NCBI RefSeq assembly: GCF_947331435.1
Contig: NZ_CAMZOF010000006.1
Span: 186,001 to 250,000, forward strand
DNA from: Pelagibius sp. Alg239-R121
GTDB lineage: Bacteria; Pseudomonadota; Alphaproteobacteria; Kiloniellales; Kiloniellaceae
Direction: 5' to 3'
DNA: 64,000 nucleotides
The stretch's first letter is position 1. Every line of letters begins with the position of its first letter. The translations under genes were made by a program, and so were the position numbers. Positions 1-34,242 of this stretch are shown here, one piece after another. Below the pieces are notes generated by a model. It was not told the DNA's origin and made no database searches. It saw only the letters and a program-made list of their open reading frames with translations.

Positions 1-1370
1 CTGTCTCCGCGAGCCGTAAAGGTGGACTGAAAGCCCTTATTTCCCACGATGATCGCGGCGGCGCTTACGCTTGGGCCGTGATGTCGAAGATCCTGGCTTA
101 TGCGGCGGCGCTGGTGCCCGAGATCGCGGACGATGTTCCTGCCATCGATCGGGCCATGAAGCTTGGCTACAACTGGAAATTCGGCCCTTTCGAGCTTATC
201 GACAAATTGGGTGCAGGCGACTTCGCTGCGCGTTTGAAGGACGAAGGCCGCGATGTTCCGCCACTGTTGGAAAAGGCATCTGCCGCGGGTGGCTTCTACC
301 GGGTTGAGGACGGAAAACTTCAGTTCCTGGGAGCCGATGGTGCCTATGCGGACCTGCAGCGTCCGGATGGCGTTCTTCTGCTGGAGGATATCAAACGTGC
401 CGGCGAGCCGGTCGCCAAGAATGGATCCGCCAGCCTCTGGGACATTGGCGATGGTGTTGCCTGTCTGGAGTTCCATACCAAGCTGAATACCTTCGATCCT
501 GAAATGCTGAAGATGGTCGGCAAGGCAGTTGCGCACGTGCCGAACAAGGGCTTTAAGGCGCTGGTGATTTACAACGAAGCGAGCAACTTCTCTGCCGGTG
601 CCAATTTGGGCCTGGCGCTCTTTGCCGCGAACACCGCCATGTGGCCGTTGGTCGAGGAAATGGTCGAGCAGGGCCAAAAGGCGTTTCTTGCATTGAAGCG
701 TGCACCCTTTCCCGTGGTCGGGGCGCCCTCTGGTATGGCGCTCGGCGGTGGTTGCGAAGTTCTGCTCAGCTCGGACGCCATTCAGGCACATGCGGAAAGT
801 TATATCGGTCTGGTCGAGGTTGGTGTCGGGATTGTGCCCGGCTGGGGCGGCTGCAAGGAAATGCTGCTGCGTCTGGCTGCCGATCCCAAACGGCCGCGCG
901 GACCGATGCCTCCGGTATCGGCGTCGTTCGAAACCATTGGCACTGCGAAGGTTGCGAAGTCAGCCTTTGAGGCCAAGGAATTCGGTTTTCTGAAGGCAAG
1001 TGACGGTATCACCTTCAACCGTGAGCGCCTGCTTGCGGATGCCAAGGCCAAGGCGTTGGCGCTGGTCGAGGGCTATGAGGCACCGGAAGCCGCCATACTT
1101 ACGCTGCCCGGACCTTCTGGCGCTGCTGCGCTCCGGCTCGCGTTGAAGGACCTGACCGCGCGCGGACTGGCGACGCCACACGATCAGATCGTCGCGGGTG
1201 GTCTGGTCGAGGTGCTGACCGGCGGGGTTGAAGCGGACATCACAGAACCGGTATCCGAAGAAGCCGTGCTCAAGCTCGAGCGCGAGACCTTCATGAACTT
1301 GATCAAGACCAATGGCACGCTGTCACGCATGGAGCACATGATCGAAACCGGCAAGCCGCTGCGAAACTAA
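1..1370 (+). CDS. 3-hydroxyacyl-CoA dehydrogenase / enoyl-CoA hydratase, C-terminal part (5' end outside window)
   Basis: The frame is open from the first complete codon at position 3, so the gene begins upstream; internal GTG and ATG codons at 78-83 are not its true start. About 455 residues are visible. The first part carries the helix MKLGYNWKFGPFELIDKLG, typical of the C-terminal domain of 3-hydroxyacyl-CoA dehydrogenases. A crotonase domain follows, with the oxyanion-hole segment FSAGANL (near 588) and GMALGGGCEVLLSSDA (from about 735). The catalytic-glutamate region GLVEVGVGIVPGWGG lies near 808-852. Dehydrogenase first and hydratase second is the FadN-type order, the reverse of FadB. 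The protein would hydrate enoyl-CoA and oxidise 3-hydroxyacyl-CoA in cytoplasmic beta-oxidation. It lies 44 bp before an acyl-CoA dehydrogenase on the same strand, so the two are probably co-transcribed. Confidence 0.9.
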   Translation, partial: VSASRKGGLKALISHDDRGGAYAWAVMSKILAYAAALVPEIADDVPAIDRAMKLGYNWKFGPFELIDKLGAGDFAARLKDEGRDVPPLLEKASAAGGFYRVEDGKLQFLGADGAYADLQRPDGVLLLEDIKRAGEPVAKNGSASLWDIGDGVACLEFHTKLNTFDPEMLKMVGKAVAHVPNKGFKALVIYNEASNFSAGANLGLALFAANTAMWPLVEEMVEQGQKAFLALKRAPFPVVGAPSGMALGGGCEVLLSSDAIQAHAESYIGLVEVGVGIVPGWGGCKEMLLRLAADPKRPRGPMPPVSASFETIGTAKVAKSAFEAKEFGFLKASDGITFNRERLLADAKAKALALVEGYEAPEAAILTLPGPSGAAALRLALKDLTARGLATPHDQIVAGGLVEVLTGGVEADITEPVSEEAVLKLERETFMNLIKTNGTLSRMEHMIETGKPLRN

Positions 1371-1414: not shown

Positions 1415-3199
1415 ATGGTTACCTACGCTGCACCGATCGACGACATTCGTTTCGTGATGAACGAACTTTTCGACTACGACAACTCCATCCCGACCCTGCC
1501 GGGGTTTGAGGATGCGACCTCTGACGTGGTCGAGGCGATTTTGGAAGAAGGCTCCAAATTCTGCGTCAACGAGCTTTTGCCGTTGAACCTGCCGGGCGAT
1601 GCAGAGGGCTGTCATTACGAAAACGGTGTCGTGCGTACGCCGAAGGGCTTCAAGGAAGCCTACAAGGCGTTCTGCGACGGCGGTTGGACCGGCCTCTCCT
1701 GTGATCCGGATTATGGCGGACAGGGGCTCCCCAAAACCCTGCAGTTCATCATGAGTGAGATGATCGTCTCGACCAACCTTAGTTTCGGCATGTATCCGGG
1801 ACTTTCCCACGGCGCCTATAACGCCTTGTCGGTATACGGCAGTGACGATCAGAAGCAGACCTTTCTACCCAGACTGATCGACGGCACTTGGTCGGGCACC
1901 ATGTGCCTGACCGAGCCGCACTGCGGCACCGACCTGGGCCTCATCCGCACCAAGGCGGAACCCGACGGCAACGGTGCTTACAAGATCAGCGGCACCAAGA
2001 TCTTCATCTCCGCCGGCGAACATGATCTGACCGATAACATCATCCATCTTGTGTTGGCGAAGCTGCCCGACGCACCGCCGGGCAGTAAAGGAATCTCGCT
2101 CTTCATCGTGCCGAAGTTCCTGGTCAAGGAAGACGGCACGCCCGGAATGCGCAACGGCGTTACCTGCGGCTCGATCGAGCACAAGATGGGCATTAAAGCC
2201 TCTTCGACCTGTGTGATGAACTTCGAAGAAGCGGAAGGCTATCTGGTCGGCGAACCGCACACGGGCATGGCGTCGATGTTTGTCATGATGAACACCGCGC
2301 GTCTGGACGTGGGCATCCAGGGCCTCGGTCTGGCGGAAACTTCCTATCAGACGGCGGCGGCTTACGCCAAAGACAGGGGGCAGGGGCGCTCGCTCAGTGG
2401 CACCAAAGCACCGGAGAAAGCGGCGGATCCCATCATCGTACATCCGGATGTGCGTAAGAACCTGCTGACTATGCGCGCCTACAACGAATCGGCGCGGGCG
2501 CTGGCGATCTGGATCGGCATGGAAGTCGATATTTCGGAAAAGCATCCGGATGCCGACCGCCGACAGGAAGCCGACGACCTGGTTGCCTTGATGACCCCGA
2601 TCATCAAGTCCTTCTTCACCGATTATGGCTTCGAAGCCACGAACCTGGGTGTGCAGATCCATGGCGGTCACGGCTACATCCATGAATACGGCATGGAGCA
2701 GTTGGTGCGCGATGCGCGCATCGCGCAAATTTACGAAGGTGCCAATGGCATCCAGGCGTTGGACCTGGTCGGGCGAAAGCTGGGTCAGGGAATGGGGAGG
2801 TTGCTCCGCCGTTTCTTCCATCCTGTGGCTGGTTTTATCGAGGAAAATCAAGAGTCAGCGGAGTTGATGGAGTTTGTCCTCCCGCTTGCCAAGGCGTTCG
2901 GGCGTCTGCAGCAGGCGACGGGCTGGATTGCCCAAAACGGTTTAAGGGATCCGGAAGAGGCGGGCGCGGCATCAAGCGATTACCTGCGGCTCTTCGCGCT
3001 GGTGGCTTTGGCCTATATCTGGACGCGAACCGTCAAGGTCAGCATGGAAAAGATGGATGAACGTCCGGACTTCTATCGAGCCAAAATTGCCGTCGCGCGC
3101 TTCTATATGACCCGTTTGTTGCCGCAGTCTTCGTCGCTCTTTGCGACTATTATGGCGGGCAAGGCACCCCTGATGGAACTGGAGGAGATCGCGTTTTGA
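1415..3199 (+). CDS. acyl-CoA dehydrogenase (long C-terminally extended type)
   Basis: Cytoplasmic FAD enzyme that introduces the first double bond of an acyl-CoA in beta-oxidation. At 594 residues it matches the long bacterial class with an extra C-terminal domain rather than the roughly 380-residue short class. Visible motifs are the FAD/substrate segment CLTEPHCGTDLG (about residues 168-179), ISGTKIFISAGEH, and the region DARIAQIYEGANGIQALD in which Glu441 is the expected catalytic base. The start at 1415 is preceded by GAGGAA at suitable spacing. It follows the hydratase/dehydrogenase gene by 44 bp. The substrate chain is not readable from sequence; the neighbouring envelope genes suggest a long or hydrophobic acyl group. 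Confidence 0.93.
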   Translation: MVTYAAPIDDIRFVMNELFDYDNSIPTLPGFEDATSDVVEAILEEGSKFCVNELLPLNLPGDAEGCHYENGVVRTPKGFKEAYKAFCDGGWTGLSCDPDYGGQGLPKTLQFIMSEMIVSTNLSFGMYPGLSHGAYNALSVYGSDDQKQTFLPRLIDGTWSGTMCLTEPHCGTDLGLIRTKAEPDGNGAYKISGTKIFISAGEHDLTDNIIHLVLAKLPDAPPGSKGISLFIVPKFLVKEDGTPGMRNGVTCGSIEHKMGIKASSTCVMNFEEAEGYLVGEPHTGMASMFVMMNTARLDVGIQGLGLAETSYQTAAAYAKDRGQGRSLSGTKAPEKAADPIIVHPDVRKNLLTMRAYNESARALAIWIGMEVDISEKHPDADRRQEADDLVALMTPIIKSFFTDYGFEATNLGVQIHGGHGYIHEYGMEQLVRDARIAQIYEGANGIQALDLVGRKLGQGMGRLLRRFFHPVAGFIEENQESAELMEFVLPLAKAFGRLQQATGWIAQNGLRDPEEAGAASSDYLRLFALVALAYIWTRTVKVSMEKMDERPDFYRAKIAVARFYMTRLLPQSSSLFATIMAGKAPLMELEEIAF

Positions 3200-3373
3200 G
3201 ATAACGCAAGACAACGGAGCTGCAAGCAATCGTTACTCCCAGTTGGAGAGAAAGATAAAAAAACGCTGCAGCTGGAATGGGATAGGGCTAAACTGAATAA
3301 AGAGTGTAAAGGACTCGAAGCGGGCGATTACTTTGAAGCGGGTATTCGAGCGCTGGGAGGATAAGGGGGTAAG

Positions 3374-5191
3374 ATGAATTCCGTATCCGGTTTGTTGCAA
3401 AACAACCCACGGCTGACGGGTATGTTTGCCAAGACTTCCATGATTGCAGGTTTGGGTGTGGGCGCGGCGACAGTGATCGCATTGCCCGCTGTTGCAATCG
3501 ATTTTGATTGGAACAACGGTGCCATTAGCGGCTCGTTTGATACAACGGTTTCGACCGGCGTCTCGGCCCGGACCCAGGGGCACGATCATCGGCTGATTGG
3601 TGTCAATAATGGTGGCACGGCCAATTCGATCAATGGCGACAACGGTAACCTGAACTATGAGAAGGGCGACATCACCTCGGCGAATGTCAAGGCGACGCAC
3701 GAGCTCTCTCTTAATGCCGGTGACTTTGGTTTCTTTGGCCGCGCGTCATACTTTTACGACACCGCGATCATGGATGGGGAAACCGCGCGTACAAATTTGG
3801 GGGATGAAGCGAAAGGCCGCGCCGGCCAGGACTTCGAGCTGCTCGATGCGTATGTCTATGGCGATTTCGATGTTGGGGATGTCCCGGTAACGGTGCGCGT
3901 CGGCAATCAGGTGCTGAGCTGGGGTGAAAGCACCTTCATTCAGAACGGCATCAACACCATTAACCCGATCGACGTGACTAAGTTCCGGGTCGCAGGCGCC
4001 GAGATTCGCGAAGGCCTGGTGCCTGTGCCGATTATCGACGTCAACGTTGGTTTGACCGATAAGCTATCGATTGAAGGCTTTCTGCAGCTCGAGTGGGACA
4101 ACACCGAGATCGAGCCTGAAGGGACCTTCTTCTCCACCAACGATTTTGCGTCACCAGGCGGGCAGTTCGTCTTCCTTGGTTTCGGTCAACCGCCGCTGCC
4201 GACCGACAATCCGCCGACTATCGCGGCGAATGCGCCCGTCGGCACGACGATTCCTCGTGGGCCGGACCGGAGCGGGACCGACAACAATCAATGGGGTGTC
4301 GCGCTGCGCTATTTTGAACCCGAACTGAACGACACGGAGTTCGGACTTTACTACATTCAGTACAACAGCCGACTGCCAGTATTAAGTGCCCGGACGGGGA
4401 CGCTCGCGGGGCTGGGTGGGGGCAACTATGCAGGCTCTGCTCAGTTCTTCCGGGAGTTTCCGGATGATATCAAACTCATCGGCGCCAGTTTCAATACCGA
4501 GATACCAGGAACCGGCATCGCGCTGCAGGGTGAATACTCTTTCCGTAAGGACCAGCCGCTGCAGGTCGACGATGTTGAACTTCTGTTTGCTGGTTTGTCA
4601 CCAATTCCGGCAACGCCGTTCGGAACTCAGGGCCAACTTGGAGCTTTCGGTTTTGACGAAGAAATTTCAGGCTTTCGTCGCAAGGACGTAAGTCAAGCAC
4701 AGGCGACAGCTTCCAAGGTGCTCGGGCCGACGTTCGGGGCTGATCAGATTGTTCTGGTTGGTGAAGTCGGTGGCACCTACGTCCACGACATGGAAAATAA
4801 GAGCGAGCTGCGCTACGAAGGGCCAGGTACCTTTACCAGCGGCAACAGCTTCTTCACCGGAGCAGGTCTCCAGCCGGCCACGCAGGATGGCGGTTTCGCC
4901 GATGCCTTTTCTTGGGGGTACCGCCTCAGGGCACGGGCCGAGTTCAACAATGCTATCGGACCGGTCAATCTGCAGCCCGGGATCGCGTTTTCGCATGACG
5001 TCAGTGGAACGACCCCGTCTCCATTGTCAAATTTCGTCGAGGACCGTAAGACCGTAACCCTGTCCCTGGGAGCGACCTATCTCGACTCGCTGCGGGCCAG
5101 CATCGCCTATACCTCGTTCTTTGGCGGTGGTGCGTTCAACCTATTGAACGACCGTGACTTCGCGTCATTCGTCGTCAGCTATTCGTTCTAG
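3374..5191 (+). CDS. DUF1302 family outer-membrane protein
   Basis: 605 residues. The N-terminus has a long hydrophobic export segment (about residues 20-40, ending ALPAVA) followed by a mature start rich in Asp, Asn and Gly. The rest consists of alternating, aromatic-rich beta strands, and the protein ends in VVSYSF, the terminal aromatic typical of outer-membrane beta barrels. These traits and its pairing with DUF1329 match the DUF1302 family. Its precise function is unknown to me; a porin-like channel for a hydrophobic compound is a reasonable inference. The start at 3374 has AAGGGGGTAAG just upstream. The next gene, DUF1329, follows after 39 bp with its own strong ribosome-binding site, so the pair is likely one transcript. 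Confidence 0.85.
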   Translation: MNSVSGLLQNNPRLTGMFAKTSMIAGLGVGAATVIALPAVAIDFDWNNGAISGSFDTTVSTGVSARTQGHDHRLIGVNNGGTANSINGDNGNLNYEKGDITSANVKATHELSLNAGDFGFFGRASYFYDTAIMDGETARTNLGDEAKGRAGQDFELLDAYVYGDFDVGDVPVTVRVGNQVLSWGESTFIQNGINTINPIDVTKFRVAGAEIREGLVPVPIIDVNVGLTDKLSIEGFLQLEWDNTEIEPEGTFFSTNDFASPGGQFVFLGFGQPPLPTDNPPTIAANAPVGTTIPRGPDRSGTDNNQWGVALRYFEPELNDTEFGLYYIQYNSRLPVLSARTGTLAGLGGGNYAGSAQFFREFPDDIKLIGASFNTEIPGTGIALQGEYSFRKDQPLQVDDVELLFAGLSPIPATPFGTQGQLGAFGFDEEISGFRRKDVSQAQATASKVLGPTFGADQIVLVGEVGGTYVHDMENKSELRYEGPGTFTSGNSFFTGAGLQPATQDGGFADAFSWGYRLRARAEFNNAIGPVNLQPGIAFSHDVSGTTPSPLSNFVEDRKTVTLSLGATYLDSLRASIAYTSFFGGGAFNLLNDRDFASFVVSYSF

Positions 5192-5230
5192 AGTGCGACC
5201 GAAAACCGTGACGCACGGGAGGAGAATTTT

Positions 5231-6595
5231 ATGAAACTGGCATCAAAGCCGCTTGCTTGCGGAGCGCTAGCGCTCCTGCTGGCTGCCCCGGCCGCATTTG
5301 CCAAAGTGTCGTCGGAAGAGGCGGCAAAACTGGGCACGGAACTGACGCCGATGGGCGCGGTCAAGGCCGGCAATGCCGATGGCACGATTCCGGCATGGGA
5401 TGGCGGCATTACCACGCCACCAGCCGGCTACCAGCCGGGGATGCATCATCCCGATCCTTATGCGGGCGATGCGGCGATTACGACGATCACGCCGGCCAAT
5501 GTCGATCAGTACAAGGACAAGCTGTCCCCTGGTCAACTGGCGATGTTCAAGCGCTATCCCGATAGCTGGAAGATGAACATCTATCCGAGCCATCGCAGTG
5601 CCTCCTATCCGCAAAGGATTTACGACTTTGCGATTGCAAATGCGACGACGGCGGAACTGACGCCGGACGGCAACGGTGTGCTGAATTCTCGTGAGTCGAT
5701 TCCATTCCCGATCCCGCAAAACGGTCTGCATGCCGTTTGGAACCACTTGTTGCGCTATCGTGGGGACACTGTTCGCCGGATCATTGGACAGGTCTCGCCG
5801 ACGTCGGGCGGTTCCTACAATCTGGTCAAGATCGACGAACAGATCTACCTCGCCTACGCTCATGAAGGCGCATCGATCGAGAGTATCGACAACACGCTTG
5901 GTTACTTTCTTCAGGAGGTAACCGCACCTGCTCGTCTTGCAGGGACAATCCTGCTGGTGCATGAAACGCTAAATCAGGAGCTGGAGCCACGCAAGGCCTG
6001 GACCTACAATCCGGGTCAACGCCGCGTACGCCGCGCGCCCAATGTCGCCTACGACAATCCAGGCACCGCATCCGACGGCCAGCGGACAAGCGATCAGCTG
6101 GATATGTTCAATGGCGCGCCGGATCGCTACACCTGGGAGCTGAAGGGACGGCGCGAAATGTATGTGCCCTACAACTCCTACAAGCTTCACAGCGATTCCC
6201 TCGAATATGACGACATCATTCAGGCCGGACACCTCAACCAGGATCTGACCCGCTATGAATTGCACCGGGTCTGGGAGGTCGATGCGACGCTCAAGGATGG
6301 TACCAGCCACATCTACGGTCGCCGGACGTTCTATTTTGACGAGGACAGCTGGCAGATCGTCGCCGCCGATCAATACGATGGGCGTGGCGAAATTTGGCGC
6401 GTCTCCGAGGCACACAATATCAACTACTACGAAGTGCCTCTCCTCTGGGAAACGGTAGTTACTCAGTACGACGTCCAGAATGGCCGCTATCTCGCGTTCG
6501 GATTGAACAACCAGGACCGTATCGAAGTCTTCAACCAGGATCTCGGGTTGAAACAATTCACGCCTGAGGGCCTGCGGCGTAAAGGCCGCCGTTAG
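5231..6595 (+). CDS. DUF1329 family periplasmic protein
   Basis: 454 residues with a clear signal peptide (cleavage probably after Ala24, in APAAFA) and no lipobox, so it is probably soluble in the periplasm. The mature start contains GTELTPMGAVKAGNADGT and IPAWDGGI, hallmarks of DUF1329 proteins, and the C-terminal half is rich in Tyr and Trp beta strands (WEVDATLKDG, DSWQIVAADQYDGRGE). From memory the family is placed near the LolA/LolB lipoprotein-carrier fold, which would suit a carrier of a hydrophobic ligand between inner and outer membrane. It has a GGGAGGAG ribosome-binding site and lies directly behind its usual partner DUF1302. A hairpin begins at the stop codon and a stronger terminator follows about 85 bp later. 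Confidence 0.87.
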   Translation: MKLASKPLACGALALLLAAPAAFAKVSSEEAAKLGTELTPMGAVKAGNADGTIPAWDGGITTPPAGYQPGMHHPDPYAGDAAITTITPANVDQYKDKLSPGQLAMFKRYPDSWKMNIYPSHRSASYPQRIYDFAIANATTAELTPDGNGVLNSRESIPFPIPQNGLHAVWNHLLRYRGDTVRRIIGQVSPTSGGSYNLVKIDEQIYLAYAHEGASIESIDNTLGYFLQEVTAPARLAGTILLVHETLNQELEPRKAWTYNPGQRRVRRAPNVAYDNPGTASDGQRTSDQLDMFNGAPDRYTWELKGRREMYVPYNSYKLHSDSLEYDDIIQAGHLNQDLTRYELHRVWEVDATLKDGTSHIYGRRTFYFDEDSWQIVAADQYDGRGEIWRVSEAHNINYYEVPLLWETVVTQYDVQNGRYLAFGLNNQDRIEVFNQDLGLKQFTPEGLRRKGRR

Positions 6596-6636
6596 AGACT
6601 GATCGTTTTCACCGAACAAAAAAGTGAATCAGTCTC
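6595..6636 (+). repeat. imperfect inverted repeat, copy 1 of a dispersed element
   Basis: GAGACTGAT (6595-6603) pairs with ATCAGTCTC (6628-6636), and TCAC (6609-6612) pairs with GTGA (6624-6627), around an A-rich loop. The first base overlaps the DUF1329 stop codon. The 14-mer CTGATCGTTTTCAC at 6599-6612 recurs exactly at 12181-12194, again followed by a TGAATC or TGATTCAG element. It could be a short dispersed intergenic repeat or simply an mRNA 3' hairpin. Confidence 0.6.
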
Positions 6637-6679
6637 GACATCATATGGTTGGAGCGCGGCTGTTGAAGCGTTTCATGGC

Positions 6680-6714
6680 AGCCGGCCGGCATAAGCCGGG
6701 CCGGCTGATCTTTT
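6680..6714 (+). terminator. Rho-independent terminator after DUF1329
   Basis: A GC-rich stem of 11-12 bp (AGCCGGCCGGC against GCCGGGCCGGCT, one bulged base) encloses the loop ATAA and is followed by GATCTTTT. It would end the DUF1302-DUF1329 transcript before the YCF48 gene, unless read-through occurs. Confidence 0.7.
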
Positions 6715-6780
6715 GAGGCCATATTCCAACAGCTATAGAAACGTCACGCAGATGGATTTCGCTCGAATTGGATCGTTGAT

Positions 6781-7791
6781 ATGAGACTCTGTGACTGGCT
6801 GATGCGATCCACACCGCTTTGGGTGGCGTTTGTGGTCGGTTTGCTTGCTGTTGCATCAAATAGTGCCTCAGCGCAACAGTCGGCCGCGACTGCCGATACG
6901 CAGGTGGAAGAGTCGGAACTTGCTGACCTTGCGAGCCGGTCACTTCTCCTGGACGTGGTTCAGAATGCGAATCGCGTCATTGCAGTTGGCGACCGGGGTC
7001 ATGTGCTTTTGAGCGACGATCCCGCTTCGAATTCCTGGAAACAGGTGGTCGTCCCCACGCGTTCAATGCTGACGGCGATCGCCTCCGGTGGCGACGGTCA
7101 ATTCTGGGCGGTCGGCCACGATGCGGTGATCCTGAAAAGCACCGATAGTGGACAGAGCTGGCAGCTGCAAAGCCGTGACGCCGAACTCGAAGCGCCACTT
7201 CTCGATGTCTGGTTTGAAGAAGGCAACCATGGCTTTGCCGTGGGGGCTTATGGTTTGTTCTACGAAACTTCCGACGGCGGGCAGAATTGGGAACAACGGA
7301 GCATCGACGAGGAAGAACCGCATTTCTATACGCTATTCGAGTCCGCCAATGGTTCGCTTCTTCTTGCCGGCGAGTTCGGATCTATTTTGAGATCCCCAGA
7401 TCGGGGGGAAACCTGGGTGAGGCTGGAAAGCCCCTACGAGGGGAGTTTTTTCGGTGGGCTGGGATTATCCGACGGGACGCTTCTGCTCTTCGGATTGCGG
7501 GGCAACCTCTTTCGTTCAACTGACAACGGCGAGACCTGGATTAAGATAGATACCGGCGTCACCGCTTCGCTGCTTGGGGCGACGGAACAGTCGGACGGCC
7601 AAGTGGTCATCGTGGGGCTCAGTGGTACCTTGCTGCGAAGCAATGACGGCGGACAGAGTTTTACCCTGACCGGCGGTTTGCGCCGCGAAGGCCTGAACGC
7701 CGTATTACCGTCAGACGGAGGTGGCCTGCTTTTGGTCGGTGAGCGGGGTGTTTCGCTTTTGACAGACGCGACAGCGGGAGCCGTGCAGTGA
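6781..7791 (+). CDS. YCF48/BNR-repeat periplasmic protein
   Basis: 336 residues with an N-terminal signal sequence (hydrophobic about residues 12-28, cleavage near ASA-QQ). The body is a set of repeats of the form S-x-D-x-G-x-x-W: STDSGQSW, TSDGGQNW, SPDRGETW, STDNGETW, SNDGGQSF. Each is followed by a hydrophobic strand, as in seven-bladed propellers of the YCF48 (photosystem II stability factor-like) and BNR families. It is not a photosynthesis gene here: in many heterotrophic proteobacteria this family sits between DUF1329 and an RND transporter, as it does in this window. A scaffold or adaptor role in the envelope is inferred. The ribosome-binding site is weak, and the gene ends 51 bp before the transporter start. 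Confidence 0.85.
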   Translation: MRLCDWLMRSTPLWVAFVVGLLAVASNSASAQQSAATADTQVEESELADLASRSLLLDVVQNANRVIAVGDRGHVLLSDDPASNSWKQVVVPTRSMLTAIASGGDGQFWAVGHDAVILKSTDSGQSWQLQSRDAELEAPLLDVWFEEGNHGFAVGAYGLFYETSDGGQNWEQRSIDEEEPHFYTLFESANGSLLLAGEFGSILRSPDRGETWVRLESPYEGSFFGGLGLSDGTLLLFGLRGNLFRSTDNGETWIKIDTGVTASLLGATEQSDGQVVIVGLSGTLLRSNDGGQSFTLTGGLRREGLNAVLPSDGGGLLLVGERGVSLLTDATAGAVQ

Positions 7792-7842
7792 GATCAAGTT
7801 TGACGTCCCGACCTGTGAGACGATGCCCATTCGAAGAAAGGC

Positions 7843-10212
7843 ATGATGAGCATGTCTGACGCTAAAGCGCCGGCCAGCGCCAGATCACCGCTGCTCGCAA
7901 AGATCGAAGAGCTGATCTTCGGGCACAGGAAGATCATTTTGGGATTCTTTCTGCTCGCGACGCTCTTCATGGGCTATCAGACATCTCTGCTGCGTATCGA
8001 CGCAGGCTTCGAAAAACAGCTGCCGCTGCGCCATCCCTATATGCAGACCTTCATCCAGCATAAAGAGGAATTCGGCGGTGCCAACCGGCTGTTGATCGCG
8101 GTCAGGGCCAAGGACGGCGACATTTTTACGCCCGCTTTTTTCTCCGCGATGAAAGCGGTCACGGACGAAGTGTTCTTCCTGCCAGGCGTGAACCGCAGCA
8201 CGGTGCGCTCCATCTACACGCCGAATGTACGCTTTATCGAGATTGTCGAAGGCGGGTTCTCGGGCGGCAATGTCATTCCCGCGGAGTTCAAGCCGACACC
8301 GGAATACCTGGCCGAAGTGCGTGAGAACATATTGAAGTCCGGGGTTGTGGGGCGGCTTGTCGCCAACGACTTCAGCACTGCGATGGTTTCGGCACAATTG
8401 GTCGAAATAGACCCGGCAACAGGACAGCGGCTGGATTACCTGAAGGTTGCAGAACAGCTTGAAGCCCGGATCCGAGATAAATACGTCGATGAAGATGTCG
8501 ATGTTCATATCATCGGCTTCGCCAAGGCGGTTGGGGATATCGCCAACGGCGCGCTTGGCGTGATCCTCTTTTTCGGCATCGCCTTCGTGATCACCGCGGC
8601 AATCGTTTATCTCTTCACCCATTCGCTCAGGATGACCCTGCTGCCGCTATTCTGCTCCCTGGTGGCTGTCGTATGGAACATGGGACTCTTGACCCTTTTC
8701 GGGTTCGGTCTGGATCCCATGTCGATCCTGGTTCCGTTCCTGGTGTTCGCGATCGGCGTGTCACACGGTGTACAGATGATCAATGCCGTGGGGGCCGAGG
8801 TGTTCGATGGTGCGGATAATCTCAGCGCCTCCCGCACGGCATTCCGCCGGCTTCTCCTGCCTGGCGGTGTGGCCTTGCTGAGCGATACCATCGGCTTTCT
8901 GACAATCCTGCTGATCGAAATCCGGATCATCCAGGAACTAGCGGTCACCGCCAGCCTGGGCGTCATGGTGATCATCCTGACCAACCTGATCTTGCTGCCG
9001 ATCCTCCTGTCGTACGTCACCCTGGGCGACAGCTACCGCAAACGCATGCATGAAGGGGCCAAACGCCGTGAGCCTCTCTGGCGTCTTCTGGCCAAGGTTG
9101 CCGATCCAAAAGTCGCCCTTGGCAGTATCGTCTGCGCCCTGCTGCTGCTGGCCTGGGGGCTTTACGAAGCGCCAAATCTAAAGATCGGCGATATTCATGC
9201 GGGCGTTCCCGAGCTCCGGCAGGATTCGCGATACAATCGGGATACAGCCGTTATCACTGAACGCTTCTCAATTGGCGTGGATGTCATCACCACTATTGTA
9301 GAGACCGTTCCCGACGGCTGTATCGAACATGACATCATGGACCGCATTGACCGCTTCCAATGGCAGATGGCGAACGTGCCGGGCGTGCAGTCGACCATAT
9401 CCATGCCGCAGGTGGCCAAAGTCATCAACGCGGGTTGGAACGAAGGCAATTTGAAGTGGCGGATTCTGCCCAGAAACCCGCAAACCATGGTGCAGGCGGT
9501 TTCCTCCATCGAGACCTCGACCGGTCTGCTGAATAAGGACTGCAGCGTCCTGCCGGTCTTGATCTTCACCGAAGACCATAAGGCAGAGACGATTGCCCGG
9601 GTGATCGAGGCCGTGAAGGCTTTTGCGGAAGAGAACAACAGCGACCGCCATACCTTCCGCTTGGCCACCGGCAATGTCGGAGTCATGGCCGCGACAAACG
9701 AGGTGGTGCAGGCCGCGCAGACCGAGATGCTGTTGTGGATTTATGCAGCCATTATCGTGCTGTGTTTTGCGACATTCAGATCCTGGCGCGCGACCCTCTG
9801 CATCGTATTGCCGCTCAGTTTAGTGTCTGTGCTCGGTTATGCGGTGATGAGTCTGCTGGGGATCGGCCTGAAAGTCTCCACCTTGCCGGTCGCGGCACTG
9901 GGTGTCGGTATCGGTGTTGACTATGGCATCTACATTTTCAGCCGCTTTCGCACGCTGCTGAACGAAGGCGGTCTCGGTCTGCACGATGCCTATGAAGAAA
10001 CTTTGAGAGTCACCGGCAATGCGGTGCTGGTGACCGGGCTGACATTGGCGATCAGCGTCAGCACCTGGGCGTTTTCAGCACTGAAGTTCCAGGCTGATAT
10101 GGGCGTCCTGCTGGCCTTCATGTTCTTGGCCAACATGCTGGGCGCTCTGCTGCTGCTCCCGTCACTGGCCTTTGTCGTTTACTCCTTTCTGCGCCGTAAG
10201 CGCGGCGCCTGA
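7843..10212 (+). CDS. RND superfamily (MMPL-type) transporter
   Basis: 789 residues in the duplicated RND layout. Transmembrane helix 1 lies at about residues 29-47, followed by a large periplasmic loop to about 215 and helices 2-6 to about 395. Helix 7 is near 423-440, followed by a second periplasmic loop to about 625 and helices 8-12 to the end. The helix-10 region of the second half has GVGIGVDYGIYIFSRFR, the MMPL proton-relay Asp motif; the equivalent first-half motif reads GVSHGVQ, so one Asp is replaced by His. MMPL-type RND proteins move lipids or hydrophobic molecules. With the DUF1302, DUF1329 and YCF48 proteins beside it, an inner-membrane motor of a trans-envelope lipid route is inferred; direction is unknown. 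Start could be 7843, 7846 or 7852 (three close ATGs after AAGAAAGG). Confidence 0.88.
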   Translation: MMSMSDAKAPASARSPLLAKIEELIFGHRKIILGFFLLATLFMGYQTSLLRIDAGFEKQLPLRHPYMQTFIQHKEEFGGANRLLIAVRAKDGDIFTPAFFSAMKAVTDEVFFLPGVNRSTVRSIYTPNVRFIEIVEGGFSGGNVIPAEFKPTPEYLAEVRENILKSGVVGRLVANDFSTAMVSAQLVEIDPATGQRLDYLKVAEQLEARIRDKYVDEDVDVHIIGFAKAVGDIANGALGVILFFGIAFVITAAIVYLFTHSLRMTLLPLFCSLVAVVWNMGLLTLFGFGLDPMSILVPFLVFAIGVSHGVQMINAVGAEVFDGADNLSASRTAFRRLLLPGGVALLSDTIGFLTILLIEIRIIQELAVTASLGVMVIILTNLILLPILLSYVTLGDSYRKRMHEGAKRREPLWRLLAKVADPKVALGSIVCALLLLAWGLYEAPNLKIGDIHAGVPELRQDSRYNRDTAVITERFSIGVDVITTIVETVPDGCIEHDIMDRIDRFQWQMANVPGVQSTISMPQVAKVINAGWNEGNLKWRILPRNPQTMVQAVSSIETSTGLLNKDCSVLPVLIFTEDHKAETIARVIEAVKAFAEENNSDRHTFRLATGNVGVMAATNEVVQAAQTEMLLWIYAAIIVLCFATFRSWRATLCIVLPLSLVSVLGYAVMSLLGIGLKVSTLPVAALGVGIGVDYGIYIFSRFRTLLNEGGLGLHDAYEETLRVTGNAVLVTGLTLAISVSTWAFSALKFQADMGVLLAFMFLANMLGALLLLPSLAFVVYSFLRRKRGA

Positions 10213-10329
10213 TTGCGATTTCGTCAACAAACTCGGCGCACGAGACTTTGACCAACTCATAAGAGGGTGACTCCAAGTTCCTGAGCATTTCAGTCGGGAA
10301 CGATCGCACTCTGGATAACAAGCACGAAG

Positions 10330-10860
10330 ATGAATCTTATATTTCGCCTGTTTCGCGTTCTCCTGGCCGGATTGTTCCGGTCCAAGGTGGGCTTTCTCGA
10401 TGAATCCGTGGTGTCGTTCCGGGTTCTACCCAACGACCTCGATTTTAATCTGCATATGAATAACGGCCGATACCTCACGATCATGGATCTGGGCCGGTTC
10501 GATCTGATGCAGCGCAGCGGTCTGACGGGAATCGCGATTAAGAACCGCTGGATGCCTGTCGTTGCGTCACAGGTGATCAACTACCGCCGGTCCTTGGCAC
10601 CCTTTCAACTTTACAGCCTGCACAGCCGTATCCTCGGGTGGGACGAGCGCTTCGTATATTTCCTTCAGCAGTTTCGCAGTGATGGAAAATTGGCGGCTTC
10701 CGCGTTGGTAAAGGCCGGTATCGTCGCCAATGGCAAAAGCCTGACGATAGAGGAGATGCTCCCGCTTGTCGGCTACATGGGACCCAAGCCACTGCTGTCG
10801 CCGGAGGTTACGGCTTGGCGCGGCACTGAGGAATGGTTGCGATCCGGCGCAGATGGCTAA
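10330..10860 (+). CDS. 4HBT-like acyl-CoA thioesterase family protein
   Basis: 176 residues. The segment DLDFNLHMNNGRYLTIMDLGRFD has the hot-dog thioesterase signature (Asp, HMNN and Tyr around the active site) and resembles the 4HBT_2/THEM6-like group. A short hydrophobic N-terminus (about residues 1-20) may attach it to the membrane. It would hydrolyse an acyl-CoA thioester. It lies 117 bp behind the RND transporter on the same strand and may be part of the same lipid-handling unit. The gene is convergent with the GNAT gene. Confidence 0.75.
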   Translation: MNLIFRLFRVLLAGLFRSKVGFLDESVVSFRVLPNDLDFNLHMNNGRYLTIMDLGRFDLMQRSGLTGIAIKNRWMPVVASQVINYRRSLAPFQLYSLHSRILGWDERFVYFLQQFRSDGKLAASALVKAGIVANGKSLTIEEMLPLVGYMGPKPLLSPEVTAWRGTEEWLRSGADG

Positions 10861-12401: not shown

Positions 12402-13130
12402 ATGTCGCTTGGGTTGCACGAACGTAGAGCGAAGCGCCGCCGCCAGTTTTGGTGGGGTGTTATCAAGTGGTTGGTGGCTTTGGCCGTAATCGGCGCGCTG
12501 GGAGTGAAGGCCTATTTCACGGGGTCCGATATTGCACAGCGCGATTTGGTTGCCGAGCAAGAGAAGACCTCGAAGCTGACCGGAGAACTCGCTGCTGTCA
12601 ATCAGACGGTCACTGATCTCAAAGCCCAACTGAATACGGCGAAACTCTCCGCTAACGATTGGCAAAAAAAGTACGAATCAGATGTCCCGACCGGCGCGCT
12701 GAAAGAGGTGCTGGACCTTGCAAGTGGCAAGCTCAGCAACGGCGTGGATATGAACCGTCTGCGGTTCCTGATCGGTTCGGCACAGAATGAGCGCAGCTGT
12801 GACAACGCGCCGGTGACTAAGCGGTTCTTTGTCGGGACTGACCTCTACAGCGGAGCAAACGACTCGGTTTCTTTTGCGAAGTCTGCGATCACGATCACTG
12901 CCAAAGGTGCGTCCGCAAAAGATCCGGCCGGTAATGTCGAGGCCTGGTACGACGCGGCTCAGCCGGTGAAGGTGAATTTCACCATTATCGGCGGCAAGGC
13001 AATCGAGGAAAGCGGCAAGCTCCCGCTGCATCACTCGGTCGTGGTCAATGATTCGGAGTACCGCTTCAGCCTGACTGAAGGTCCACGTGGCTTCGTTATT
13101 ATTTCCGGCGATCGCTGCGATTATCCCTGA
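12402..13130 (+). CDS. membrane-anchored coiled-coil protein of unknown function
   Basis: 242 residues. A basic N-terminus (RRAKRRR) is followed by one transmembrane helix at about residues 18-41, a positive-inside type II anchor. A coiled coil (about 46-86, AEQEKTSKLTGELAAVNQ and following) comes next, then a mostly beta, soluble C-terminal domain (about 95-242) with two Cys residues (SCDNAP and DRCDYP) that could form a disulfide in the periplasm. I do not recognise the family. The layout suggests an envelope scaffold or sensor. The ribosome-binding site is weak (GGAAAGAG about 10 bp upstream). Confidence 0.65.
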   Translation: MSLGLHERRAKRRRQFWWGVIKWLVALAVIGALGVKAYFTGSDIAQRDLVAEQEKTSKLTGELAAVNQTVTDLKAQLNTAKLSANDWQKKYESDVPTGALKEVLDLASGKLSNGVDMNRLRFLIGSAQNERSCDNAPVTKRFFVGTDLYSGANDSVSFAKSAITITAKGASAKDPAGNVEAWYDAAQPVKVNFTIIGGKAIEESGKLPLHHSVVVNDSEYRFSLTEGPRGFVIISGDRCDYP

Positions 13131-13204
13131 ACCGCAAATCACCTGGACACAAAGCATGGCGTTCCTTCAGTTTACGGTTATTGGCGCGGCCTGAAAGGCT
13201 CTGA

Positions 13205-14044
13205 ATGCTCGCCGAGTGGTTCCGATATCTGACCACGCCATGTCCGAGGCACCTGCGCGCACTTGGATATCCTCAACAGATTATTGCGACCCACGCACGC
13301 TACCGGCGTTGCGAGGACGCCTGGCGCCCGCATCTCGAAAGCACGAAGTCTTTCATCTTGGAGAGTGCTGCCGGGGCAAGCGGCAACCGGCGCGCTGTGA
13401 TCCTGGGCTCGGGGTCTCTCCTCGATATTCCTCTCGCCGAACTCTCGAGAGATTTTGAGCAGATCGAGCTTGTCGATATTCTGCATCTCCCCTGGGTCAA
13501 GCGCCGGGGCTTACGATATCCCAACGTTCGCTTTCACGATCTGGATGTCACAGGGCTGTGCGAATCTTTGGTTTCACTGGAAAAACTTGGACGAGGTGCG
13601 CAAGGGCGGCAAACCGAACTTCCACAGACAGAACCGCAGTCTCTGGAACAAAGTTTGAGCTGTGGTCCCATCGATTTTCTCGTTTCCGTAAATCTTCTAT
13701 CACAACTGCCGTTGATGCCGAGCGCCTTTCTCGAAAAGCGATGCCCGGCCTACACGGACGCAGATCGGAAGGCCTTCTCACAAGGCCTGATCGTCAATCA
13801 CCTTCACTGGTTAAAAGCACACACAGATCAGGTGTGTTTGATTACCGACCTGGAGCGGTCGATCTGTGATGGAGCGGGTCATGAGATCGACCGGGAAGAC
13901 GCGCTTTTTGGGGTTGCGCTGCCCGCGCCGGATCGCGAGTGGATGTGGGATATTGCCCTGCAGCCCGAGGTTCACCCTCTGCATGACCTTCGGCACAGGG
14001 TTGGGGGATATTGCAATCTGCGCGAATTTGACTTCGCTTCATGA
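13205..14044 (+). CDS. hypothetical protein with Rossmann/methyltransferase-like core
   Basis: 279 residues, start at 13205 behind AAAGG. The central part has VILGSGSLLDIPL (about residues 66-78), a glycine-rich loop after a beta strand, followed one strand later by IELVDILHLPW. This order resembles an S-adenosylmethionine-binding fold. FLVSVNLLSQLPL is in the place of the usual motif IV. No signal peptide or transmembrane helix. Several Cys residues are present without a metal pattern. A methyltransferase-like function is inferred, and the substrate is unknown. Confidence 0.6.
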   Translation: MLAEWFRYLTTPCPRHLRALGYPQQIIATHARYRRCEDAWRPHLESTKSFILESAAGASGNRRAVILGSGSLLDIPLAELSRDFEQIELVDILHLPWVKRRGLRYPNVRFHDLDVTGLCESLVSLEKLGRGAQGRQTELPQTEPQSLEQSLSCGPIDFLVSVNLLSQLPLMPSAFLEKRCPAYTDADRKAFSQGLIVNHLHWLKAHTDQVCLITDLERSICDGAGHEIDREDALFGVALPAPDREWMWDIALQPEVHPLHDLRHRVGGYCNLREFDFAS

Positions 14045-32929: not shown

Positions 32930-34242
32930 ACCGCCAGCCAATCCGAGATTTTTTCAAGAAACAGATCCTGCAGCTCCACCGCGCCAATTTCACTTACGGA
33001 CTCTGCAAGAAAAGCTTGTATTAACAGTGCTTTTGCTGAGGTTTCTGAGAGTCCGCGGGAGCGCAGGTAGAAAAGGGCATCATGATCGACTTCGCCGGCG
33101 GAGCAGCCATGGCTGCATTTTACGTCGTCGGCGTAGATCTCCAACTCCGGCTTGGCATTAATCTCCGCTGTGTCTGTAAGCAGCAGGACCTTGTTCAGCT
33201 GATGGCCGTCGGTCTGCTGGGCGTTGGGCCGGACGACGATGCGTCCCTGAAATACACCGCGCGAACGTCCGTCCAGCACGCCTTTGAAGACTTCCCGACA
33301 GGAGGTTTGCGGCGCCAGATGCTCAACGACCGTGGTGGTATCGCAGTGCTGTTGGCTGCGCATCAGGTAACCACCGTTCAAATGGCAGTTCGCCCCCTCG
33401 GCCGTTAAGTTCATCTTGGTTTCATTCCGCGACAGAGCGGCGCCGACACTCAGCGTATAGCCGTCGTAGAAGCTGTTGCCTGCGAGCTCTCCGTTCGTCG
33501 TACTGGTGTGAACCGCGTTCTTGCCCTCGGCCTGGATCCGGTAGTGGCGCAGCGTCGCATCTTCGTCGAGGGTCACGTCGTTCGCCGCGTTAATGTAATA
33601 GGCAGAATCGTCCAGGCCCAGATGATGCTCAAGAATCGTCGCTTCGCTGCCGGCGCCCAGGGAAATCAAGTTCCGCGCGTTATGGGCAAAGACGCCGTTC
33701 TGCGCTGAATTGACGTGGATTACTTCCAGTACCCGTTCAAGCTTGCAGCCAGCGTCGAGCTGCAACAGCAGGCCATCGCGCATCAATGCCGTGTTGAGGG
33801 CGACGAGAGGCTGGTCTTCAATGCCCTTATGCTGAGCCAGCAGCCTTTCCACGCACTCAGGCTCGTCTTCGGACAAAGCGGCTACCCCGCCGATAACAGC
33901 ACCTGCCGGCAGATCCGCCAGATCGGACAGGTCAGCGCGAAAATCACCGTTTACAAAAACGATCCGATAGGCGCTGCCATCGGGTAGAAGACTGGGCGCT
34001 CGGTCGATACTGACCGGCCTCGGCGCAAGCGACTGCCCGTCCAGCTCAAGCTGCGTTAAGTTGCGCAGATTGGTGTATTTCCAGGACTCTCTGCGCTGAG
34101 TCGGCAGGCCGCTTGCGGAAAAGGCATCCATGGCCCGGTCCCGCAGGGCTGTCATCCACGGCAGGGCTGACCCGGGGAGCTCCGGTTTGAGGCTGTCGTA
34201 CTGATCGACAAAGGGGGTGGTCATTGCGTTATCTTGCTTCAT
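32926..34242 (-). CDS. sufD: Fe-S cluster assembly protein SufD
   Basis: 438 residues. SufD features are the beta-helix core and the C-terminal motif DDVKCSHGCSAGEVDHDALFYLRSRGL. It joins SufB and SufC in the SufBC2D scaffold. ATG 34242 lies 30 bp behind sufC; a second ATG six codons on is possible. The N-terminal part contains PTQRRESWKYTNLRNL, typical of the family. Confidence 0.94.

Follow-up and report, generated by a model that had tools for sequence, protein, structure and literature searches.

What do four envelope proteins carry, and in which direction, when their genes adjoin what looks like a full set of beta-oxidation genes? The question is raised by one end of a 64,000-nucleotide stretch of DNA from Pelagibius sp. 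Alg239-R121 (hereafter the window), part of a genome of 8.0 Mb in 48 contigs. An earlier note, made from the letters of the window, had proposed that the four proteins form one route across the envelope for a hydrophobic compound, with the DUF1329 protein as carrier and a beta-propeller as adaptor. All the open reading frames and families that it named are recovered at their positions in the ORF list and by Pfam. On the plus strand, an acyl-CoA dehydrogenase gene (1415..3199, 594 aa, with a PF12806 domain in Pfam) is followed by AmeA, a DUF1302 protein and putative outer-membrane barrel (3374..5191, 605 aa, Pfam E 1.5e-176); AmeB, a putative periplasmic DUF1329 protein of the LolA-like superfamily (5231..6595, 454 aa, Pfam E 1.5e-155); AmeC, a YCF48/BNR propeller with a signal-peptide-like start (6781..7791, 336 aa, Pfam PSII_BNR/YCF48 5.2e-24); AmeD, an MMPL/HAE3-like RND protein (7843..10212, 789 aa, Pfam MMPL 3.9e-26); and a 4HBT_2 thioesterase with a hydrophobic N-terminus (10330..10860, 176 aa, Pfam 1.4e-24). 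The gaps from the acyl-CoA dehydrogenase through to the thioesterase are 174, 39, 185, 51 and 117 bp, and on the strength of these distances a single transcript is possible. Barrel proteins typically end in an aromatic residue, and the C-terminus of AmeA reads VVSYSF. DUF1302 is its sole Pfam match, PF03349 being absent, and a single-sequence search of the PDB with AmeA gave no match up to E 1. The N-termini of both AmeB and AmeC look like signal peptides when judged by eye.

The left edge of the window cuts a further plus-strand gene, for a hydroxyacyl-CoA dehydrogenase/enoyl-CoA hydratase, whose 3' part occupies positions 1..1370. The whole gene starts upstream of the window and is present at L004:10989-13370 as a frame of 793 aa, with the dehydrogenase domain N-terminal and the hydratase domain second. 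In L004 the complete gene is preceded by four others: a sigma-54-type response regulator comes first, followed by an acyl-CoA ligase, a MerR regulator and a thiolase. Scanning L004 for sigma-54 sites gave 11 matches against 8.8 expected, a number reached in 54 of 200 shuffles; promoter-like sites (3 against 4.3 in shuffles) and terminator-like sites (16 against 11.6) were likewise not used as evidence. Oligopeptide-type ABC transporter genes lie upstream of the response regulator on the minus strand (L004:305-5067), and on the other side of the cassette two frames (12402-14044), encoding 242 and 279 aa, match nothing in Pfam or NCBIfam at E 0.001.

By its families and their order, the window cassette is an AmeABCD-type arrangement of a known kind. 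The statement in the earlier note that the biochemical role of such a set is not established is out of date: a study of 2018 gave AmeABCD its name, deleted it and ran assays (PMC6394551), and in 2024 the set of Pseudomonas putida was published as a co-folded model (PMC10866462). The set from Castellaniella defragrans 65Phen comprises the same four families in the same order, with proteins of 605, 451, 316 and 787 aa against 605, 454, 336 and 789 aa here (PMC6394551). This likeness is judged by families, order and lengths, and both cassettes adjoin catabolic genes; that of C. defragrans lies beside monoterpene genes and its authors propose export, whereas the present one lies beside beta-oxidation genes. 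The same authors describe the cassette as conserved and its RND component as a likely new subfamily within HAE3 (PMC6394551). In P. putida, PP_0765/PP_0766 and PP_2018/PP_2019 are reported to encode a DUF1302 protein, a DUF1329 protein, a periplasmic protein and an RND-type transporter, as here; all four are required on Tween 20, and co-folding gave weak contacts between 0766 and 0765 and between 0766 and 2019, and a strong one between 2018 and 2019 (PMC10866462). A 'nanopod' cluster of the benzene degrader ORM2a again joins a porin-like protein to DUF1329, YCF48 and MMPL proteins, and deletion of a DUF1329 gene in Delftia is reported to impair growth on phenanthrene (PMC13101534); DUF1302 and DUF1329 proteins are among those listed for Delftia nanopods (PMC3110197). 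In Betaproteobacteria, a four-gene set regulated by AphR/S/T combines DUF1302, PF07044, COG4447 and COG1033 (PMC6449761). The ORM2a and AphR/S/T sets differ from ours in their aromatic substrates and extra universal-stress genes, and the passages cited name no beta-oxidation block (PMC13101534, PMC6449761). AupA and AupB of Marinobacter hydrocarbonoclasticus are likewise outer- and inner-membrane proteins, there serving the uptake of a hydrophobic growth substrate; however, AupA is FadL-like and not DUF1302, and the words DUF1302, DUF1329, RND and MMPL are missing from the main text of that report (PMC5989066). Given the reports on C. defragrans, P. putida and the aromatic and benzene degraders, the route proposed in the earlier note was largely in print.

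The four envelope genes are a real unit. We compared the named loci, that is, the best 80 of at least 590 AmeD loci, a sample biased towards relatives of the window's AmeD, and of which 64 have at least 5.5 kb of sequence upstream. Among these 64, AmeC is present in 63, AmeA in 59 and AmeB in 57, and the order A-B-C-D is complete in 57, so that the four genes, as expected from the earlier proposal, are commonly adjacent elsewhere. Seven loci depart from this: four from Pseudomonas have C and D only, one from a gammaproteobacterium has D alone, and in two from Nitrospirillum (L082 and L091) AmeA, AmeC and AmeD are present and AmeB was undetected. L141 is presumably the orthologue of PP_2018/PP_2019. 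The P. putida genes are themselves numbered as two separate loci, whereas those of the window are contiguous (PMC10866462).

A survey of 299 genomes of the phylum leads to the same view. Full-length DUF1329 occurs, among the matches listed, in 34 genomes, and every one of these also has an AmeD-type RND gene. AmeC lies within 8 kb and on the same strand at 48 of 50 AmeD places, all four genes are present at 24 or more of the 50, and DUF1329 is found within 1.5 kb and on the same strand for 59 of 65 full-length DUF1302 genes. Only 34 of the 91 full-length DUF1329 genes among the matches listed are within 8 kb of a scored AmeD, which indicates that many A-B pairs are separate from C-D, as in P. 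putida. Up to three AmeD, six DUF1329 and four DUF1302 candidates were scored per genome, so cassettes per genome are lower bounds; the counts leave out the second fragment of the G154 AmeD gene (50 of 51 rows used), repeat AmeC fragments and weak LolA-like matches among the DUF1329 results, and genes in relatives were called simply as the longest open frames. Over 51 loci, the pairwise distances of the proteins are correlated at 0.71-0.91, figures that include shared organism descent. Moreover, the ten genes from ligase to thioesterase keep the same order in all four genomes of the genus, with L155 and L156 covering only part of the ligase. With all ten genes kept in the genus and A-B-C-D kept so widely among the named loci, the arrangement is not due to chance.

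Outside the genus the cassette is scattered. AmeD (E up to 1e-60) is found in 4 of 4 genus genomes, in none of the 19 other genomes of the family and in none of the 18 further genomes of the order that we examined. In one congener, G300, AmeD is 92% identical and lies at 34101 of its contig. The best matches beyond the genus, among those listed, come from a Rhodospirillaceae MAG, Desulfuromusa-type and other Deltaproteobacteria-type MAGs, an Acidiferrobacteraceae MAG and others, with 61-65% identity over the best segment. From this patchy pattern of presence and absence we infer that the genus ancestor may have gained AmeABCD horizontally. PF03349 (FadL/Toluene_X) has no match in the four genus genomes. 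The idea that AmeABCD replaces FadL is nevertheless weakened: 15 of the 19 other family genomes lack both FadL and AmeD, and 30 of the 33 other AmeD genomes in the phylum sample carry FadL, so that AmeABCD does not stand in for FadL as a rule.

The neighbouring genes give an indication of the cargo. Ligase, thiolase, dehydrogenase/hydratase fusion, acyl-CoA dehydrogenase and thioesterase together look like a full beta-oxidation set. Among the best 25 NCBIfam models of each, the top models of the ligase, thiolase and dehydrogenase/hydratase are for fatty-acid oxidation, the best of the ligase being long-chain; the general thiolase model TIGR01930 is the only one above its cut-off. The acyl-CoA dehydrogenase scores best with acryloyl-CoA reductase (169.9 bits) and Bacillus FadE (134.2 bits), both far under cut-off. 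A long-chain specificity of these enzymes is therefore suggested rather than established by the models. The earlier note had listed acyl, isoprenoid and steroid-like substrates, and of these a hydrophobic acyl compound agrees best with the neighbours here, which hint at fatty acids as the cargo of the window's cassette. Elsewhere, terpene, phenol and benzene settings indicate that the cargo varies.

The link to beta-oxidation is itself local. In the Rhodospirillaceae MAG L071, homologues of six genes of the block (40-67% identity) follow the cassette on the opposite strand, in convergent orientation, which argues that the two blocks stay together despite rearrangement. Less similar pairs of dehydrogenase/hydratase and thiolase genes stand beside the cassette in L072, L073, L078, L129, L134 and L140. 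When a neighbour is defined as at least one dehydrogenase, dehydrogenase/hydratase or thiolase scoring above 80 bits, 9 of the 59 named loci of at least 15 kb (from the best 80 of at least 590) have one. These nine include L070, from the window's genus, and two Pseudomonas loci that by this definition carry thiolase and ligase only; L078, which has beta-oxidation genes in 14.8 kb and so falls below the 15-kb bar, and L145, with another FadE-type gene, are uncounted. In the phylum sample, a dehydrogenase/hydratase gene accompanies the cassette in 1 of 34 AmeD genomes, namely the window's own. We thus reject a general linkage; the association drawn in the earlier note stands for this genus and a minority of others, but not for the cassette at large.

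A carrier role for AmeB receives indirect support from sequence. Besides DUF1329, AmeB matches LolA_like (PF17131) with 36 bits against a cut-off of 30 (E 7.3e-9). A single-sequence search of the PDB gave no match up to E 1; the AmeB profile gave six up to E 5, the best being the LolA-like 9tp6 (E 0.015) and the others looking unrelated. Against the LolA-like pair of the same genome, the profile scores weakly (probability 4.3). On contig C7 (L006:7290-11864), an RND protein and a LolA-like domain share one 1077-aa frame with no internal stop, followed by a DUF1302-like barrel. This fusion recurs with 82% conservation in two of the other genus genomes and was not found in the third, which makes 3 of 4, and it supports contact between carrier and pump in the wider family. 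The carrier role that the earlier note assigned to DUF1329 gains plausibility from the LolA_like score and this fusion. On contig C1 (L005:3446-12004), genes for a histidine kinase, a sigma-54 response regulator, an RND protein, a LolA-like protein and a DUF1302-like barrel occur separately in a row. The C1 and C7 sets are distant relatives of the cassette.

The best NCBIfam model for AmeD is HAE3 TIGR00921, at 190.6 bits for a cut-off of 351.9. The protein displays 12 hydrophobic peaks, and its two large loops span 43-239 and 443-626. All 14 aligned sequences share S307-H308 of segment 4 and D693-Y694 shortly after segment 10, and a simple pattern search of 76 AmeD frames of the named loci (best 80 of at least 590) finds G-x-S-H in 65 and G-V-D-Y in all 76. 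MmpL3 has Asp-Tyr pairs in both halves. We take the Ser-His of segment 4 to sit where MmpL proteins have Asp-Tyr, the pair by segment 10 being kept; proton coupling in AmeD may thus involve one half only.

Gene content, conserved order, correlated divergence and neighbours are observed, and from them we derive a scheme in which localisation, contacts, cargo, direction and energy coupling are proposals. AmeA would be the entry barrel of the outer membrane. AmeB, periplasmic and LolA-like, would take a hydrophobic acyl compound from AmeA to AmeD, on which AmeC would sit as an adaptor. Using the Asp-Tyr pair near segment 10 to draw on the proton motive force, AmeD would place the compound in the inner membrane; the ligase would then activate it for degradation by the acyl-CoA dehydrogenase, dehydrogenase/hydratase and thiolase, and the thioesterase would relieve CoA trapping. 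That the window holds an AmeABCD-type cassette joined to an apparent long-chain fatty-acid beta-oxidation operon and importing acyl compounds is a reading to which we give even weight for and against.

A second kind of neighbour bears on direction. VolA, a lipase at the cell surface, supplies fatty acids for uptake. Genes for VolA/Pla-1-type phospholipases, on the same strand and with a stop 4-17 bp before the AmeA ATG, occur in 6 of the 63 named loci (best 80 of at least 590) that have at least 7 kb upstream of AmeD: L079 from Nitrospirota, and L081, L083, L098, L122 and L135 from Gammaproteobacteria. Two of the six proteins were scanned, and both pass PF12262 and fall just under the TIGR03502 cut-off; the other four match these two at more than 400 bits. 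In the phylum sample, a PF12262 gene adjoins AmeA in G154, one of 12 genomes holding both, and is not beside the cassette in the other 11. A PF12262 search of the window's own genome gave no match at E 1e-5, and none of the six phospholipase loci carries the beta-oxidation block too. Taken together, a lipase outside, a periplasmic carrier and beta-oxidation inside suggest a coherent import route, and the beta-oxidation genes and the phospholipase gene before AmeA favour an inward acyl cargo. A stronger version, in which AmeABCD would be a proton-driven importer of long-chain acyl lipids with its RND protein working inward, a surface phospholipase freeing fatty acids where present, and the cassette feeding beta-oxidation and serving as the entry route in the genus, where no FadL was found, is tentative and rather doubtful.

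Overall, we assign import about one half of the probability and export one third. RND proteins are mostly exporters, and the best sequence matches of AmeD among solved structures are the mycobacterial exporters MmpL3/4/5 and efflux pumps. As an exporter, AmeD would take a toxic or overflow hydrophobe (a fatty acid freed by the thioesterase, a terpene or a solvent) from the inner membrane and pass it through AmeB and AmeA to the outside, protecting the cell; the thioesterase gene adjoins AmeD in the four genus genomes and in L071, in line with this reading, whereas the phospholipase genes of six loci, which appear to be transcribed together with the cassette, fit it poorly. The four proteins also figure in predicted aromatic-degradation regulons, where they are listed as possibly coping with toxic aromatics (PMC6449761). 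The C. defragrans authors likewise read their data as export, citing slightly raised accumulation of Nile Red by the mutant under CCCP and its lost tolerance of high limonene, seen as poorer growth above 5 mM with acetate (PMC6394551). However, the mutant's growth defect appeared on non-functionalised monoterpenes as sole carbon source and was lifted by acetate at 3 mM limonene, and its real-time Nile Red efflux was almost identical to that of the wild type (PMC6394551). To our reading, import accounts for these published data no less well than export does.

Improbable, in our estimate, is a role in building the envelope, whereby an endogenous lipid would be moved to the outer membrane, as by HpnN or BstABC for hopanoids or sterols, and the neighbours would reflect lipid turnover or chance. 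AmeD does match the HpnN and BstA models, under their cut-offs, and at the two loci checked the neighbours are non-catabolic: a Na+/H+ antiporter and an M1 peptidase in Rheinheimera (L103), and UvrA, an AI-2E-type transporter, an RMMBL protein and DUF3108 in Cephaloticoccus (L087). Such a role sits badly with so patchy a distribution, AmeD and full-length DUF1329 co-occurring in 34 of 299 phylum genomes among the matches listed, and with the break between the genus and the rest of its family; the phenotypes of the published cases, moreover, depend on the substrate.

Separate reports connect the cassette with terpenes, with aromatics, with benzene and with Tween 20, and they read it either as an exporter or as a transporter of unstated direction. 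This genus and the lipase-cassette loci are natural settings for testing cargo and direction directly, with ordinary fatty acids. If acyl import proves true, an inward-working bacterial RND protein would be a real addition; otherwise the window holds one more instance of a published system.

Some variants of the cassette were seen along the way. Apparent gene fusions in G032 (C10), G054 and G058 turned out to be open frames merely overlapping the adjacent AmeA gene. Two tandem DUF1329 genes are present in L081 and L098, giving A-B-B-C-D, and also in L104, whose sequence starts at the first B. In G032 (L150:5867-18998), four DUF1302 and two DUF1329 genes follow one another with AmeC last, and one of the DUF1329 genes contains an in-frame TAA.
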